64,000 nt of DNA, taken from NCBI GenBank assembly GCA_023627715.1, contig JAMAHW010000002.1:372001-436000 (forward strand), read 5' to 3'. Positions 18,102-57,562 of this stretch are shown in pieces. Position numbers and translations under genes: made by a program. Origin of the DNA: Periconia sp. R9002 (Eukaryota > Ascomycota > Dothideomycetes > Pleosporales > Periconiaceae). Under the pieces are notes generated by a model, which worked only from the letters and a program-made list of their open reading frames with translations, did no database searches and was not told the DNA's origin. Numbering within the stretch: the first letter of the stretch is position 1; each line of letters opens with the position of its first letter.

Positions 18102-18311
18102 CCTTCCCCGCCTATGAATCTCACTGATAGGAAACAGAAACTTGAGTTACACAGAGAATTGGCTGGATCGACAGCGCAACGACGTCGCATTGCCGTGTCT
18201 GTATTCTCCAGGTTATTTGGATCAGCCTTGCTACGCTCACAACTGATACTAGGCATCTGTTGAAATGAAATGCCCTCTTCAAGTTGCAATGGCACTTGCT
18301 TGAGTCGTGCG

Positions 18312-18438
18312 TTAAACTCGTGCTCCAGATACAGAGTCGTTTGTTGTCAAGACACCACGTGGCGTGGTGTATTGAAACATTCATCACTCATTGTATCACC
18401 CCTGGTTGCGTTAAGCTGACTTTGTACCCACGATATAG
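18312..18438 (+). mobile_element. Introner-like element, copy A
   Basis: 127 bp, TTAAACTC to GATATAG, with a 6 bp longer body than the standard 121 bp copies (3 bp is an extra GTG after the first eight bases). Flanks are GTGCG on the left and GTGCT on the right, a near-perfect 5 bp target duplication. It keeps the sub-terminal TACAGAGTC/GACTTTGTACC pair, the palindrome ACACCACGTGGCGTGGTGT, an AGCTGAC branch-like site and the terminal AG. It lies at the 5' edge of the zinc-finger remnant starting at 18439. Confidence 0.85.
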
Positions 18439-18985
18439 GTGCTATTCACCGCAGTGGCCATCACGCTCAAGCAGGTCCCGGGGCTCAATTGCACTTCGTC
18501 TTTGAAGCAAGGGGTCAGGTTCAAAGGCTGTATCCCGTCTTGTTCCAATTGCGCGTACAACTTCCGCCCCGGCGAAGTCCATTTCTGGCGACAAGGTTTC
18601 CCACATACTCAGAGCCTTTTGCAGACGTTGCTACCGCTACAGCCAAGAACATCCTGGAGAGAATTGACCTCAGCGAGGCAAAGTTTCTGGAATGTGGCTC
18701 TGTCAAAATTGCCAATTTTATGAGACAGCACATAAACAATCGGCCAATAGCGCCGAAAGAGCTGCACACCTTCTGAAGAAAAAGGAACAGGCTGACGCAA
18801 AACCCGAAGACGGTATATGTGAAGCCATTCACTGCAACGCCGAACATGGCAAACGAGGGTCGATCTCCAGACTTTTCTTCTGCAATTCATGCATTGGGTA
18901 CGAGTATACTCGCAAGCGTTCGATCAACAACAGTGAGGGTATCGAATGGCAATTGCAGCGAAACGAGAAAAGGCGTGCTAAATAA
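18439..18985 (+). pseudogene. Zinc-finger (GATA-like C-x2-C) protein remnant
   Basis: Two frames of this stretch hold paired cysteine motifs. The first has CSNC, about 100 bp upstream of WLCQNCQFYETAHKQS. The second, FFCNSCIGYEYTRKRS, resembles the first (C-x2-C-x2-YE-x3-K/R) and is preceded by CEAIHC. That is the layout of two GATA-like fingers, but spacing differs from canonical GATA and no continuous model could be built: the frame changes near 18596-18675, where GT..CAG bounds could form an intron. It may be a small gene with an unresolved start or a decaying copy. No function is assigned. Confidence 0.4.
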
Positions 18986-19409: not shown

Positions 19410-19764
19410 AGTTCGACTCCGCCAGCAGAGAAGGATCTGAATCTACCTCTGATACGAATGTTGACGTCGCCGAGGTGTTGACTAATGGAGCAGCAAACGA
19501 AGACGTTTACACGACTGCCGACACAGATGTCTCAGCACAGAAAGATCAGCATCTACCTCCGATACGAATGCTGACGTCGCCGATGCGTTGACTAATGGAT
19601 CAGCAAACGAAGACGTTTACACGACTACCGACACAGATCTCGCAGCACAGGACGTTGTAGACGCCGTATCCGACAGTGTCCCCTCAGCGTAGTTCTACGA
19701 GGGCGATGTCCCCTTAGCGTGGTTTTACGAGGGCGATAACGAAAGCGACTTCGACAACGAATAG
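19410..19764 (+). pseudogene. Degraded acidic coding remnant with a 110 bp tandem duplication
   Basis: Codon-like sequence reading Thr/Asp/Asn-rich peptide (TSDTNVDVAEVLTNGAANED). It is repeated once with a 110 bp period (about 19430-19540 and 19541-19650), which is not a multiple of three, so the second unit is out of frame with the first. A further short repeat (FYEGD twice) is interrupted by an in-frame TAG near 19691, and the frame ends at 19764. The parent gene is not recognised. It may belong with the zinc-finger remnant upstream. Confidence 0.45.
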
Positions 19765-27178: not shown

Positions 27179-27817
27179 GTACGTGTAATCATCTCTTTGT
27201 CTCTTGATTAATGAGCTATTCCTCATATCACTTCTCTTGCATCCATTACAAGATTCATCTTGTTTTTGTAAGTGTGCATCCTAAACACAGAATTTTAACC
27301 AGTCTCCTAGATTTCCAGAATGAGGTGCAGGCTATCAAGCCACAAACACGTACAAAACCAGTAAGCACAAAGTTTCGAGCTGAGCTTCAACTCTTGTTTC
27401 AACTAAATATGACAATATTTTGAATATTAATTCTACCTCGTCGTGTAAAACCACACGTATGACATCAATCTTGTGTTACTTAACCTGGCCATACAAAGAT
27501 AGAATACATACTCACATAGAGCTGTATGTTTTCTGAATTCGGGTACAGAATAAAATCTCAGAGTTGCCGTATCGTGATGATATTAGGGGGAAAAGTCGAT
27601 CTGGTTTGACGCTCGCAAATATTCTGACTCAGACGTCGATTCTGTGCCCACTTTTACTGATTTGACACTCAATGGAAGTGCTCACTTCTTACTGCAATGT
27701 TGCATGAAAATCAGACATCCCCTTGACTTCACGCCGCACGACGGTGCAGTCATGATTGCGATTGGCTCATGATCCCTGCTCGGCCGTGCCGCATCCCCTC
27801 CGGCTAGGGTCGAAATG

Positions 27818-27938
27818 TTGGACTTCAGGTACAGAGTCGTTTATTATCGAGATACCACATAGCGTAGCGTATTTAGATGCTAACAATGTACTATAACCAC
27901 CCTAGTTACATTTAACCAACTTTACGCCCACGATATAG
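27818..27938 (+). mobile_element. Introner-like element, copy B
   Basis: Exactly 121 bp, TTGGACTTC to GATATAG. Left flank AAATG, right flank GTATA, so the duplication is eroded. Branch-like ACCAAC is 20 bp or so before the terminal AG. Intergenic. Confidence 0.85.
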
Positions 27939-28967
27939 GTATATCAGGTATCTAAAGAATTGGGAGAGCGAGAAAGGGTTTGATGCTTCCGCGGACCGTC
28001 GACTCGAACAGAGCGGAATGCAACGTGCAAAAACGTGCTGCCCCTCGGAATAACCAAATACCACAACTCTGGGTGATAGAATAAGCCGGATAAATATAAA
28101 ATGAAACTTGCAGCTCTTATGTACATGCGAAGACCGAGACCACTGGACCCCTAACCATTCATATCAGAAAAGCATATTGATTCGACGGAGGCATACATGC
28201 AATCAGCGCCGGAGTTGGCTAGCATACTCGAATCAATTCTCTCATAGACCTTAGCCCCAGTAATCACACTCTGGCGACATCCTCTTGTTATTTCCTTAAA
28301 TATACATCACCAGAACATGGATGATCCCACAATTCTACATTAGAAAGCATCCGACGAGGCGGAATGCGGCCGAGAGCAATCGATGCACAAAATGAAGGGA
28401 AAGGGTTCCAGATAATGGTAATACACCTAGCATTACGTGTCGTGAACGTTCTGGCTGGATTGGTAAACACATCGCTTTATTGTTCATCACCGTCGTTTTC
28501 ACTACATGAAAGGTTTGCCATTCGAGAACGAGTCAGCCGGTGAAAGCGTACAGTAATTCAGATGTCAAATCATGAACAGTCGTCATTTTTGGTATCTGGT
28601 CATTTGGTTATCGAAAGTCGTAGCAATCCAACAACTTGATCAAATAATTTTACGGGGTTGGCAATCAATCGCCCACGGGAATCGCAGCTTCCAGAGTGAT
28701 ATGATTTGCAACATGAATTCGACGGCAAATGCCAGACTTTGATGATCTAAGATGCAGTGCAAAAAACGAAAAGGTATTGTGGCGTAGTCAATATGCGGAG
28801 CCCCTGTCCTTTCGCTTGTCTCTGGATTTACCTAACAGCTCACTTTGCACATTGACTCAGCTAAGTGCCTCAGTCTCGCATCATGCATCAATCCTCTTCG
28901 TTGCTCGGGGATACAAACAGCAGAAAAGGGAGGTATCTTCTGACGCTATGAAGTAGCTCGGAGGTAC

Positions 28968-30945: not shown

Positions 30946-31058
30946 TCTATGGACAAAACGCCTTCGAAAAATGCTGCGGCCTTCTGGATAATCGACATTC
31001 CTCTGAAGCCTATGAGAGAGAATGTCATGACGAAGTTTTCAATCTACAGGATATATAG

Positions 31059-31179
31059 TTAAACTCCAGGTACAGAATCTTTTGTTATCGAGACACTACG
31101 TGGCGGGGCGTATTAAGACACTAATTATGTACTGTAACCACCCTAGTTACATTTAACTGACTTTGTACCCGCGATACAG
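31059..31179 (+). mobile_element. Introner-like element, copy C
   Basis: Exactly 121 bp, TTAAACTCC to GATACAG. Flanks TATAG and GATGC give no clear duplication. ACTGAC branch-like site and terminal AG kept. Intergenic, between the P450 fragment and the MFS gene. Confidence 0.85.
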
Positions 31180-31813
31180 GATGCATATCTCTGCATTCTA
31201 GCAGGCTTTTCCTAAGGTATATTGATCATGTATAATCTTGGAGCCAAATTCATTTGTATTATCGTGATCGTCTTATTCGGAGCACAACTTTCGAACAGCG
31301 CCACCAGGCCCGAACGCAGTCAACTTCCCACCATCAACGTGTCCGAAGATTGATGAAGCCTCGCCAAAAGGTCCAGTGGCCTAACCCAAGCTTACGTGAC
31401 AAGGTTTCGTCCCAGGCCATAATCCTACCGACTCAAAGGGGCAGTCGGGCCAAGTTTGCGCCGTTTCATTCGGAGACTTCTTAGTCAGCAGCTGCACGTA
31501 CGGTGACATGCGGGTGAATAGACGACCCGAGTTATATTACTATACTGGGGTTAGCCCCGTGATTCTGTTAATTGCAAGCATATTTTCTGTCACATTCATA
31601 ATAACGTCTTCCTCTACAGCCAACGTTGGTGAGTATGTGGAGGATATCTCATCTACCTTTTTCTCATAAATTGCGTATCAATAGTCTTGTTCATCCGTAA
31701 AGATTCGTGTGCTATCTTGTCATTGCTGTCCTCTTGCAATTGATTGTTCTCACCACTTTGGCAGATATTTGTACTTCCAAGCCACAGCCATTGACATTCA
31801 GCAAAGAGTTGCA

Positions 31814-33668
31814 ATGGTGTCAATCGACAGCGCTACAGCGCGAACAAGCCCATCTGCCGAACAAAAGGATGAAGAGAGAATCGAATTGCCTTCGACAGTT
31901 CTAACACCTCATAAAGATTTTCAATTCTGGATGATCATGGTCGCACTGTGCATGACTGGTCTCCTTGGAGCGCTCGAAAACACCGTCGTTACCACATCTT
32001 TGCCGACAATAGTCGCAGCCTTGAATGTCGGGCAAGACTACGTGTGGATCACAAATGTATTCTTTCTGACGAGGTGAGCCTCTCATCCATCGAACGCTGC
32101 GGTTCATTTCCTGAATGTTTTCCAGTGCTGCTGTGCAACCTTTTTTTGGCCAGGTAGCCAACATCTTCGGTCGCCGTTGGTTGGCTATATCCATCGTGGC
32201 CATCTACACACTTGGGAGTGGCATTTGCGGCGGTGCAAATTCTGGCGGCATGCTTATAGCCGGTCGAGCGATCCAAGGCATAGGATCCGGAGGCGTGAAT
32301 ATGATCGTAGATGTCATAGTCTCGGATCTTGTACCTCTTCGTCAACGAGGCAACTACATTGCTATTGTCTTGACGGTTTACTCCATCGGGACATCCCTGG
32401 GCCCGTTCATCGGAGGGGCACTCGTCGACACGACTTCCTGGCGTTGGGTATTTTATATCAATCTTCCCGTAGGTGGGACCGCCTTGGTCATGCTTTACTT
32501 ATTCCTGAGAGTGGAATGGAATAAACAAGCAACATTCTCAGAACGCATCCGGACGATCGATTTTATCGGTAATGGTATTATCATGGCGTCAACCGTGGCT
32601 ATTCTCTGGGCGTTGACTTATGCCGGTGCCCGCTATCCCTGGTCTTCATGGCATATCATAGTACCACTGGTGCTTGGCTTCGTTGGTTACGGCATCTTTG
32701 CTGTGTTTGAAGGCTCCAGTTTGTGCAAAGAACCAGTCATGCCTTTACGCCTGTTCAGCCATCGGACGGCCTTAATTATATATTTCAACACGTTTTTGAA
32801 CTCGACTTTGCTGTACTGGGCAATGTTCTTTCTTCCAGTCTATTTCCAGGGCGTCTTACTTTCTAGCGCGTCGCGTGCCGGGGTACAGATGCTACCCATC
32901 GTTCTTGTTGCAGTGCCTGGTGCTGTTGTCGCTGTCATTATCCTCTCAAAATATGGCCGCTACAAACACCTTCACATCGTAGGTTTCGCGCTGATGACTC
33001 TTGGACTTGGGCTCTTCAGTATCATGGATGATAGCTCCTCGACGGCCAAATGGGTCATATTTCAGGTGCTCGGCGCACTTGGCTCCGGTATGATTCTGAA
33101 CACGCTACTTCCCGCATTTCAGGCAGGCATTGAAGAGAAGGATCAAGCTGCCGCAACGGCTAGTTGGTCTTTCATACGCAGCTTTGGCAATGTATGTTGA
33201 ACTCCAGATACAAATTCGTTTATTATTGAGACACCACGTAGTGTAGCGTATTAAGACACTAATAATGTGCTATAACCACCCTAGTTACATTATACTAACT
33301 TTGTACCCGCGATATAGGTATGGGGCGTGGCAATCCCCGCTGCGATCTTCAACAATCAATTTGTCGACGAAGCGCGTGCAATAGACGATCCCAGGTCTGA
33401 GATACTGGTGGCGGGAGGAAGAGCATACGAATACGCGTCGCGCAACTTCGTCACTTCTTTCTCGGAGCCCGCAAAGCAGCAAATTATCGATGCTTTCGTC
33501 GTGTCGTTAAGAATGGTGTGGCAGATTTCCATCGCCTTTACAGGTCTTGCATTTGTCTTGTCTTTCTTCGAGAAAGAGATTCCTCTCCGGAATGAACTTG
33601 ACACAGAATTCGGTATGGAAGGAAAGAAGGAGGGCGAAAAATCCCTTGGGAAGCCAGTCACCATTTGA
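31814..33668 (+). CDS. MFS drug/metabolite exporter (DHA2, 14-TMS type)
   Basis: Three exons (31814-32073, 32126-33191, 33318-33668), 558 aa. The start is chosen at MVSIDSATA because a hydrophilic N-terminal tail then leads straight into TM1 (FWMIMVALCMTGLLGALE). Motif A-like FGRRW, motif C-like LGPFIGG and about 14 hydrophobic segments mark the H+-antiport efflux group that includes toxin and multidrug exporters. The first intron is an ordinary 52 bp. The second (33192-33317, 126 bp) is a mobile introner-like element plus its 5 bp target duplication. Removing it restores SFGN-VWGVAIPAAIF, the conserved reading of this family, whereas unspliced reading stops at once (TGA). Beside the AflR-type gene it probably exported the cluster product. 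Confidence 0.93.
33197..33317 (+). mobile_element. Introner-like element, copy D, acting as an intron
   Basis: Exactly 121 bp, TTGAACTCC to GATATAG, inside the MFS gene. It is flanked on both sides by GTATG (33192-33196 and 33318-33322), a perfect 5 bp target-site duplication. The left copy of GTATG is the intron's 5' splice site; the element's own TACTAAC and terminal TATAG are branch site and acceptor. The intron is therefore duplication plus element, 126 bp. Confidence 0.9.
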
Positions 33669-34048
33669 TGAGAAGCTCGGGCATTGAGGTACACATCGAA
33701 TCAATCATGTTAGATACGTTGAGCGTTATAGGTAATTTTCACAGATGATTTAGAGCAGCTGTTGATTGATACTATGTGTACCTTAGCCAGTAACCCAACT
33801 CAAGGCAAGGGTGGCTCCTCAAGGATTCGAAGACGGTTCACCAGCATCCGAATCAATTCTACACCGGCCCACCTCGTTAGATGCTCGACGCAAAGAAACT
33901 TGGCTTTAAACTGCAGCCCGCCAAACGCTAGGCTCTACCTGCGATTCTCTTAGCACCTGCTATAGATTGATTGCTCTAGTCTTTTATAGTGTCACGATAA
34001 TGAACGAATACGAATACCATTTCAACATGATATCCACTACTTGCATCA

Positions 34049-34553: not shown

Positions 34554-34705
34554 TGCTCCTTCCTCCTCACCCTGATCCGCAACACCGAAATGTCGAGTAT
34601 AGTCCTCATCTTTCCCAAACCGCGACTTTGTGGTTTTCTGCCAATAAGGTTTCTCACGGTATGCCATCTCCGCATTTCTTCGATTGCGGCTAAGGGAGGT
34701 CGCAC

Positions 34706-34826
34706 CTATATCGTGGGTACAAAGTCAGCTTAACTTAACTAGGGGTGATACAATGAGTGAAGAATGTCCTAATACACCACGCTACGTGGTATCTTAATAA
34801 TAAACAACTCTTTACCAAGAGTTTAA
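34706..34826 (-). mobile_element. Introner-like element, copy E
   Basis: Exactly 121 bp on the minus strand, TTAAACTC to GATATAG. Flanks (minus strand) ATGTG and GTGCG differ by two transitions. Palindrome CACCACGCTACGTGGTG and AGCTGAC branch-like site intact. Lies 54 bp from copy F in the same orientation. Confidence 0.85.
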
Positions 34827-34880
34827 CACATACCCTATAGTGTGGCGTGTTATTCCTTAAAACAACAGCCATTCACACAC

Positions 34881-35001
34881 CTATACTGTAAATACAAAGT
34901 TAGCTAAACTCAACCAGAAGTGACATAATGAGTGATGAATGTCTCAATACACCACGCTACGTGGTGTCTCGATAGCAAACGCCTCTGTACCTGGAGTGTA
35001 A
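34881..35001 (-). mobile_element. Introner-like element, copy F
   Basis: Exactly 121 bp on the minus strand, TTACACTCC to GTATAG. Flanks (minus strand) CTATG and GTGTG. Contains AGCTAAC as branch-like site. Same orientation as copy E. Confidence 0.85.
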
Positions 35002-35200
35002 CATAGCGAGAGACATCTCTTCATTGATTAGTGAAACTACGTAGGTAGGTAAACAGAAGGAAATCGTTATGCGTTGTTGGAAGGGGCAGGAGTGCTCGGG
35101 AAGACGCTATTCCATATTGGGTAATCGGTAGCTTAATAAGGCAGTTGCTGCTGCCAACTACAACCAACAACTCGAATTAATTCTCTCGTAGACCGTTACA

Positions 35201-36559: not shown

Positions 36560-36722
36560 ATTGGTTCAGTTCTCTGGAATTTCCCTACTTGCTATTGATT
36601 CAGTTCTCTGGCTTCTTCCCACACTCACCATTGATTCATTTCTCTGGCTTCTTCCCAAACTCGCCATTGATTCATTTCTCTGGTTAATTACCACACTCCC
36701 CATTGATTCATTTCTCTGGGTT
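36560..36722 (+). repeat. Minisatellite, CATTTCTCTGG unit, copy 2
   Basis: Four to five units of about 36 bp built on CATTGATTCATTTCTCTGG plus CTTCTTCCCACACT-like spacers, more regular than the related array at 18993-19125. Confidence 0.85.
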
Positions 36723-57508: not shown

Positions 57509-57562
57509 CGAAAACAAATTTAAATCCCTCCGAAAACAAATTTAAATCCCTCCGAAAACAAA
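57509..57562 (+). repeat. 22 bp tandem repeat
   Basis: Two and a half perfect units of CGAAAACAAATTTAAATCCC plus TC. Confidence 0.9.

Follow-up and report, generated by a model that had tools for sequence, protein, structure and literature searches.

Our analysis supports the view that the second intron of an MFS transporter gene in Periconia sp. R9002 is an inserted mobile element, whose predicted removal restores the codons that stood at the site before the insertion. The gene lies in the 64-kb stretch of DNA that was analysed as a whole (hereafter the window), part of the 42.9-Mb, 267-contig assembly that was searched as the genome. Very probably, a short non-autonomous transposon-like element duplicates three bases of its target, forms a composite donor with it and is removed as an intron; both the splicing itself and the role of a DNA transposase in the insertions are inferred. 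An earlier note on this DNA had proposed that the intron was born by insertion of a mobile element, and the proposal was borne out by the repetitive nature of the intron, since its right end recurs in at least 173 genomic places (at up to two mismatches) and in none with a reversed-pattern control. Three proteins of the window or genome found their best homologues in Periconia macrospinosa (91, 89 and 91% identity), a member of Periconiaceae, Pleosporales, Dothideomycetes, followed for two of the three by Periconia digitata (81 and 72%).

The MFS transporter gene and its second intron

The gene was recognised by a Pfam MFS_1 match (32115-33197) and by its homologues, and the borders of its exons and introns are given in Table 1. 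The intron under study ends in ATATAG, and the presumed branch A at 33298 lies 19 nt upstream of the intron end. Both TACTAAC and the terminal TATAG, which the earlier note had assigned to the element, can be read at its 3' side. When the intron is retained, the frame stops at its third codon, and the conserved 116-codon C-terminus of the protein therefore requires intron removal. Alignment of the exon pieces as separate queries showed that SFGN and VAIPAA are separated by exactly three residues in 118 of the 120 best homologues (the two exceptions having gaps of -2 and 25), and the predicted splicing 33191/33318 leaves VWG, which are the three residues expected from the homologues. Because of this spacing, one of the two TAT triplets at the locus is target sequence and the other was added. 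The claim that splicing restores the original codons holds with one amendment, namely that the G retained after the acceptor belongs to the element and substitutes for that of the target. An Rfam search of 32800-33700 gave no match, and the structure of 33195-33317 folded as DNA was not unusual (z 0.21).

Table 1. Features of the MFS gene and copies of the element family in the window
Feature	Position	Strand	Basis
MFS transporter gene with intron	31814-33668	+	Pfam MFS_1, homologues, read borders
Coding exons, MFS gene	31814-32073, 32126-33191, 33318-33668	+	read from DNA
First intron, MFS gene, ordinary-looking	32074-32125	+	borders read from DNA against homologue P0001
Second intron, MFS gene, 126 bp, GTATGT...ATATAG	33192-33317	+	frame, homologue junction, in-frame stop if retained
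Mobile element, 123 bp, subfamily I	33196-33318	+	ends set from 115 copies
Left target duplication TAT, part of donor	33193-33195	+	covariation, 115 copies
Right target duplication TAT, in conserved codons V-W	33319-33321	+	homologues, covariation over 115 copies
Target G, first base of intron	33192	+	G at this place in 30/34 sense-open copies
TACTAAC, presumed branch point, element-borne	33293-33299	+	read from DNA; CTRAC in other copies
Element copy, subfamily II, flanks TGC / TGC	18311-18439	+	
Element copy, subfamily I, flanks AAT / TAT	27817-27939	+	
Element copy, subfamily I, flanks ATA / ATG	31058-31180	+	
Element copy, subfamily II, flanks TGT / TGC	34705-34827	-	
Element copy, subfamily II, flanks TAT / TGT	34880-35002	-	

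The element family and its target duplication

The element, GTTGAACTCC...GCGATATAGG, is non-coding and about 123 bp long, its ends being defined over 115 copies; the length of 121 bp given for it earlier had to be corrected. Apart from the right ends mentioned above, the left end was found in 124 places at up to two mismatches and in 154 at up to three (reversed-pattern controls 0 and 0), and a 141-bp query against the genome gave 40 scored matches among 200 candidates, with 84-100% identity. We read 129 loci and the window, which yielded 116 anchored copies with both ends, reduced to 115 as one window copy had been anchored twice; the ends of L111 and L139 were re-anchored before counting. 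Right ends with no recognised left end (25/113), copies over the mismatch limits and 25 of the 45 newly listed left ends were kept out of the counts. Since the copies were chosen by the similarity of their ends, old copies are under-represented.

Element length was 123 bp in 90 of the 116 anchored copies, and the family falls into two subfamilies, I and II, with 83 and 32 copies, respectively. The flanking triplets are mostly TAY for subfamily I and TGY for subfamily II, which might reflect a difference in target preference. Six copies lie in the window. Two of subfamily II in the same orientation (34705-35002) stand downstream of the MFS gene with 52 bp between them, and the window also contains tandem repeats at 19423-19650, 36560-36719 and 57509-57562 (units of 110, 36/72 and 22 bp) that are apparently unrelated to the element.

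MITEs are short, non-coding elements of high copy number with a fixed-length target duplication and a target preference, and the Periconia element resembles them in all these respects, its duplication having a fixed length of 3 bp. Unlike in MITEs, the inverted repeat of the Periconia element lies 11 bp inside each end, with 9 of 10 positions matched (reached in 6 of 20,000 shuffles), and the outermost 11 bp of the ends do not match as an inverted repeat. Furthermore, no larger element or autonomous partner sharing the ends was recognised in the fetched loci, and PF13359, the sole transposase family searched, was absent from the genome.

The target duplication was assessed by comparing the three bases left of GTTGAAC with the three right of ATATAGG. 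These triplets were identical in 61 of 115 copies, as compared to a mean of 24.3 after shuffling, and none of 10,000 shuffles reached 61; shuffling within subfamilies raised the mean to 36.7, and again 0 of 10,000 shuffles reached the observed value. With TAT and TGT omitted on either side, 12 of 34 triplet pairs were identical against 3.4 expected. Each of the three triplet positions matched more often than by shuffling (87, 88 and 79 of 115 against 71.5, 73.9 and 62.9, reached in 0 of 3,000 shuffles). Among the 54 copies with non-identical triplets, two bases matched in 25, one in 21 and none in 8. The alternative that the triplets are fixed parts of the subfamilies, TAY in I and TGY in II, was rejected, because the within-subfamily shuffles and the rare triplets still favour duplication, and because one TAT of the MFS locus sits in conserved codons.

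The earlier note had read the GTATG on both sides of the element as the duplication. Both copies of GTATG are present (33192-33196 and 33318-33322), but among the flanking bases tested only the three triplet positions covary, and the duplication is thus 3 bp long, TAT at the MFS locus. A duplication of all five bases was rejected, as neither the base before the triplet (67/115 matching against 63.1, reached in 221 of 3,000 shuffles) nor the base after it (31/115 against 30.4) showed clear covariation. The outer two of the five matching letters are a coincidence: G33192 belongs to the target and G33318 is the last base of the element, while G33196 is the element's first base and G33322 is again target.

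Splice signals, host genes and copies without a duplication

In the proposed mechanism, an element that starts with GT, ends with ATATAGG and carries a branch-like CTRAC upstream of its end would insert at targets preferring T-[A/G]-[C/T] and duplicate these 3 bp. Where a G precedes the target triplet on the sense strand, the insertion would spell G-TAT-GT...TACTAAC...ATATAG/G, and the spliceosome would take out the target G, one TAT and the element minus its final G. This final G would replace that of the target and leave the mRNA unchanged. For the MFS gene, the insertion target would have been GTATGG (codons V-W). The donor GTATGT of this gene consists of the target G, the duplicated TAT and the element's GT, so that the left GTATG, formerly taken as a donor provided by the duplication, owes to it only a part, and the acceptor ATATAG/G is supplied by the element.

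T-[A/G]-[C/T] describes the right triplet of 23 of 34 sense-open copies (at least 50 codons) and of 26 of 38 non-coding-like copies, whereas G stands before the left triplet in 30 of the former 34 as compared to 15 of the latter 38 (p-value 2e-5). The triplet preference being similar in both classes and the G being found mainly in sense-open copies, insertion sets the triplet and donor selection sets the G. A broader selection comprised the 37 sense-open copies that have a GT donor and at least 40 open codons on both sides, or at least 300 on one side and at least 15 on the other. Its donors were GTATGT (23 copies), GTACGT (6), GTAAGT (4) and others (4), and CTRAC was found near the acceptor in 36 of the 37, and in 60 of the 78 other copies. 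Intron phases 0, 1 and 2 occurred in 16, 9 and 12 copies. GT donors were missing from 8 of 45 sense-open copies.

Frames open in matching phase for at least 60 codons on both sides were found in the sense direction only for 25 copies and in the antisense direction only for 5; at a threshold of at least 40 codons, the figures were 34 and 8. Of all 115 copies read, at least 38 were non-coding-like. The family satisfies the definition of introners, that is, similar introns at unrelated positions and in unrelated genes of one genome, through 37 of its 115 copies (the sense-open GT set). Among the genes recognised near copies are those for an MFS transporter, RNA polymerase I subunit RPA2/RPA135, alcohol oxidase, nitroreductase, aldehyde dehydrogenase, a pyridine-nucleotide oxidoreductase, and ketoacyl synthase and polyketide dehydratase domains, and many short exon pieces beside copies matched no Pfam family. 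In the RPA2 gene (L018), the conserved NQSPRN closes the exon piece before the intron, which is followed by a split ATG and then by TAT CAG TGC (Y-Q-C). The left triplet of this copy is TAA and that of the exon TAT, which may point to an improved donor; TAA looks like a mutated TAT. On the minus strand of L018, a reading of the DNA alone places a 12-base exon between the element copy and a second intron. One MFS-like gene (L015, Pfam match below the cut-off) seems to hold two copies, flanked by TAT/TAT and TAC/TAC, both in sense open frames.

A subset of the family lacks the duplication: in 11 of the 37 sense-open GT copies (L023, L024, L027, L031, L033, L063, L073, L092, L117, L121 and L138), at most one of the three triplet bases is shared. 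Their left triplets are TAT, TAC or TAA. All 11 have G after TAG; eight were found by a pattern that includes this G, and the other three by similarity search (L117, L121) or by left-end search (L138). The two exon pieces adjoin with zero residues between them in 117 of 117 homologues aligning both for L024 (120 fetched) and in 4 of 4 for L023 (9 fetched), while for L092 Pyr_redox_2 profile position 152 falls on the penultimate residue of the upstream piece and position 154 on the initial residue of the downstream piece. Removal of the element restores the host protein at the MFS locus as well as in L024, L023 and L092. Since the exon triplets CCG, CTC and GCG of L023, L024 and L092 fall in conserved codons, the donor bases of these copies are not derived from the target. 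That these three are old copies with a mutated donor side was rejected on account of the same codons and of terminal element 10-mers with only 0-2 mismatches; for L063, L117 and L138, in which two bases differ, such mutation is possible.

Two copies without a duplication, L027:2500-2630 and L033:2426-2556, are 99.2% identical over 131 bp, and their match extends by one base (T) before the element and by CAT after it. The genes are unrelated and the remainder of the 5-kb loci is dissimilar. They share GTAA and not the exon-side triplet, which suggests, from these alignments, that the donor bases moved together with the intron. Among the 88 copies with intact ends (at most two mismatches across the two terminal 10-mers), 19 had at most one matching base: 11 sense-open GT copies, 2 sense-open copies with no GT and 6 others. 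The only one of these others with a GTA donor, L120, is probably mis-anchored and has a duplication after all. Confinement of the copies lacking a duplication to genes is suggestive only (two Fisher tests, p-values 0.065 and 0.075).

Competing explanations and known introners

An ordinary old intron between a chance pair of GTATG would need no insertion, and GTATGT is a common fungal donor, so that such a repeat is not rare by itself. The probability of this explanation is nevertheless negligible: it is refuted by the identity of the intron with the multicopy repeat described above, by the many copies of non-coding character and by the covariation of flanking triplets. It is also improbable that the transposon stays unspliced in the MFS exon and that the gene is broken, as might be suggested by the many family copies outside long open frames. 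Against this stand both MFS exons, which are open, conserved and exactly in phase, the presence of donor, branch and acceptor sequences, and the fact that retention would stop translation in all 37 sense-open GT copies. Nor is the last MFS exon accelerated, its divergence from three outgroup proteins not exceeding that of the P. macrospinosa exon (identities of 66.1/65.8, 62.3/58.8 and 50.5/48.2% for this gene and P. macrospinosa, respectively).

An arrival at the RNA level, in which a sister intron was reverse-spliced or captured by repair before a G and the TAT pair reflects the site and no duplication, would be in line with the 11 sense-open GT sister copies lacking a duplication, with the intron-exact state of the three of them that were tested, and with the interpretation of fungal introners as reverse-spliced in PMC9860276. 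For the MFS intron we consider it improbable, as the covariation of triplets, rare ones and those within subfamilies included, and the presence of the family outside open frames need a DNA-level duplication for most copies. Insertion of a transposon-like element with a 3-bp duplication remains our preferred reading of the MFS locus.

For the subset lacking the duplication, we tentatively consider that one family spreads by two routes, by DNA transposition with 3-bp duplications inside and outside of genes, and as an intron-exact unit that enters genes with no duplication. The second route might, on this still tentative proposal, start once the donor bases (GTAT, GTAC or GTAA) belong to the intron itself. 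If true, it would supply a link that has been missing between MITEs and the fungal introners that lack duplications. The same copies may have arisen by reverse splicing or by capture of an intron copy before G, by insertion of a DNA unit longer by one triplet and with no duplication, or by insertion during repair where one base matched. A DNA-level explanation or a strict site requirement is favoured by the G that follows every acceptor, and an RNA-level route by the apparent confinement to genes.

In Gozashti et al. 2022 (PMC9860276), the introners of Symbiodinium microadriaticum are described as DNA transposons that obtain a 5' splice site from the target duplication, a mechanism that PMC12403724 credits to Huff et al. 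2016. The Periconia family resembles the Symbiodinium introners in that the 3' splice site comes with the element, the 5' site stems partly from the duplication, the mRNA stays as it was (here by prediction) and many copies occur in unrelated genes. It differs in its duplication of 3 bp instead of 4, its short, sub-terminal inverted repeat, its ascomycete host and the part of the family with no duplication. The surveyed fungal introners of PMC9860276 are described as gene-biased and devoid of duplications, with ascomycetes as an outlier whose families have neither inverted repeats nor duplications; PMC12403724 (2025) repeats the absence of duplications in ascomycete introners and counts 0 in 288 stwintrons. 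The Periconia family as a whole departs from this absence of target duplications in fungal introner-like elements, and the subset of 11 of 37 sense-open GT copies fits it.

As with the introner-like elements of Dothideomycetes (Collemare et al. 2015, PMC4457414), near-identical introns occur in unrelated genes, but in the Periconia family 3-bp duplications are clear and many copies lie outside long open frames. According to PMC12403724, the sequence-similar stwintrons of Hypoxylaceae and Xylariaceae have inverted repeats and insert seamlessly; neither a duplication nor a bias among the exon bases next to them was found. Both are introns multiplied in ascomycete genes, and the Periconia copies lacking a duplication are likewise seamless; unlike the stwintrons, the Periconia introns are not nested, most copies have a target duplication and all 11 copies with no duplication have G on the acceptor side. 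Our search of open-licence papers, mostly by titles and the beginnings of abstracts, found no ascomycete introner family with duplications, and a search for Periconia and MITEs gave nothing useful.

Fungal introner families have been read as RNA-level. A donor derived from a duplication being known from the sources cited above, the Periconia family adds an ascomycete case with duplications, and the copies lacking them are possibly the larger point. A Pleosporales family with locus-specific 3-bp duplications, copies both inside and outside open frames, and composite splice sites indicates that introns can arise from transposons in ascomycetes as well, and its sister introns with no duplication allow one to ask if introns of such origin go on to spread in a different way. 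For each copy with a duplication an empty site can be predicted, which for the MFS gene would read AAT-GTATGGGG with no intron.
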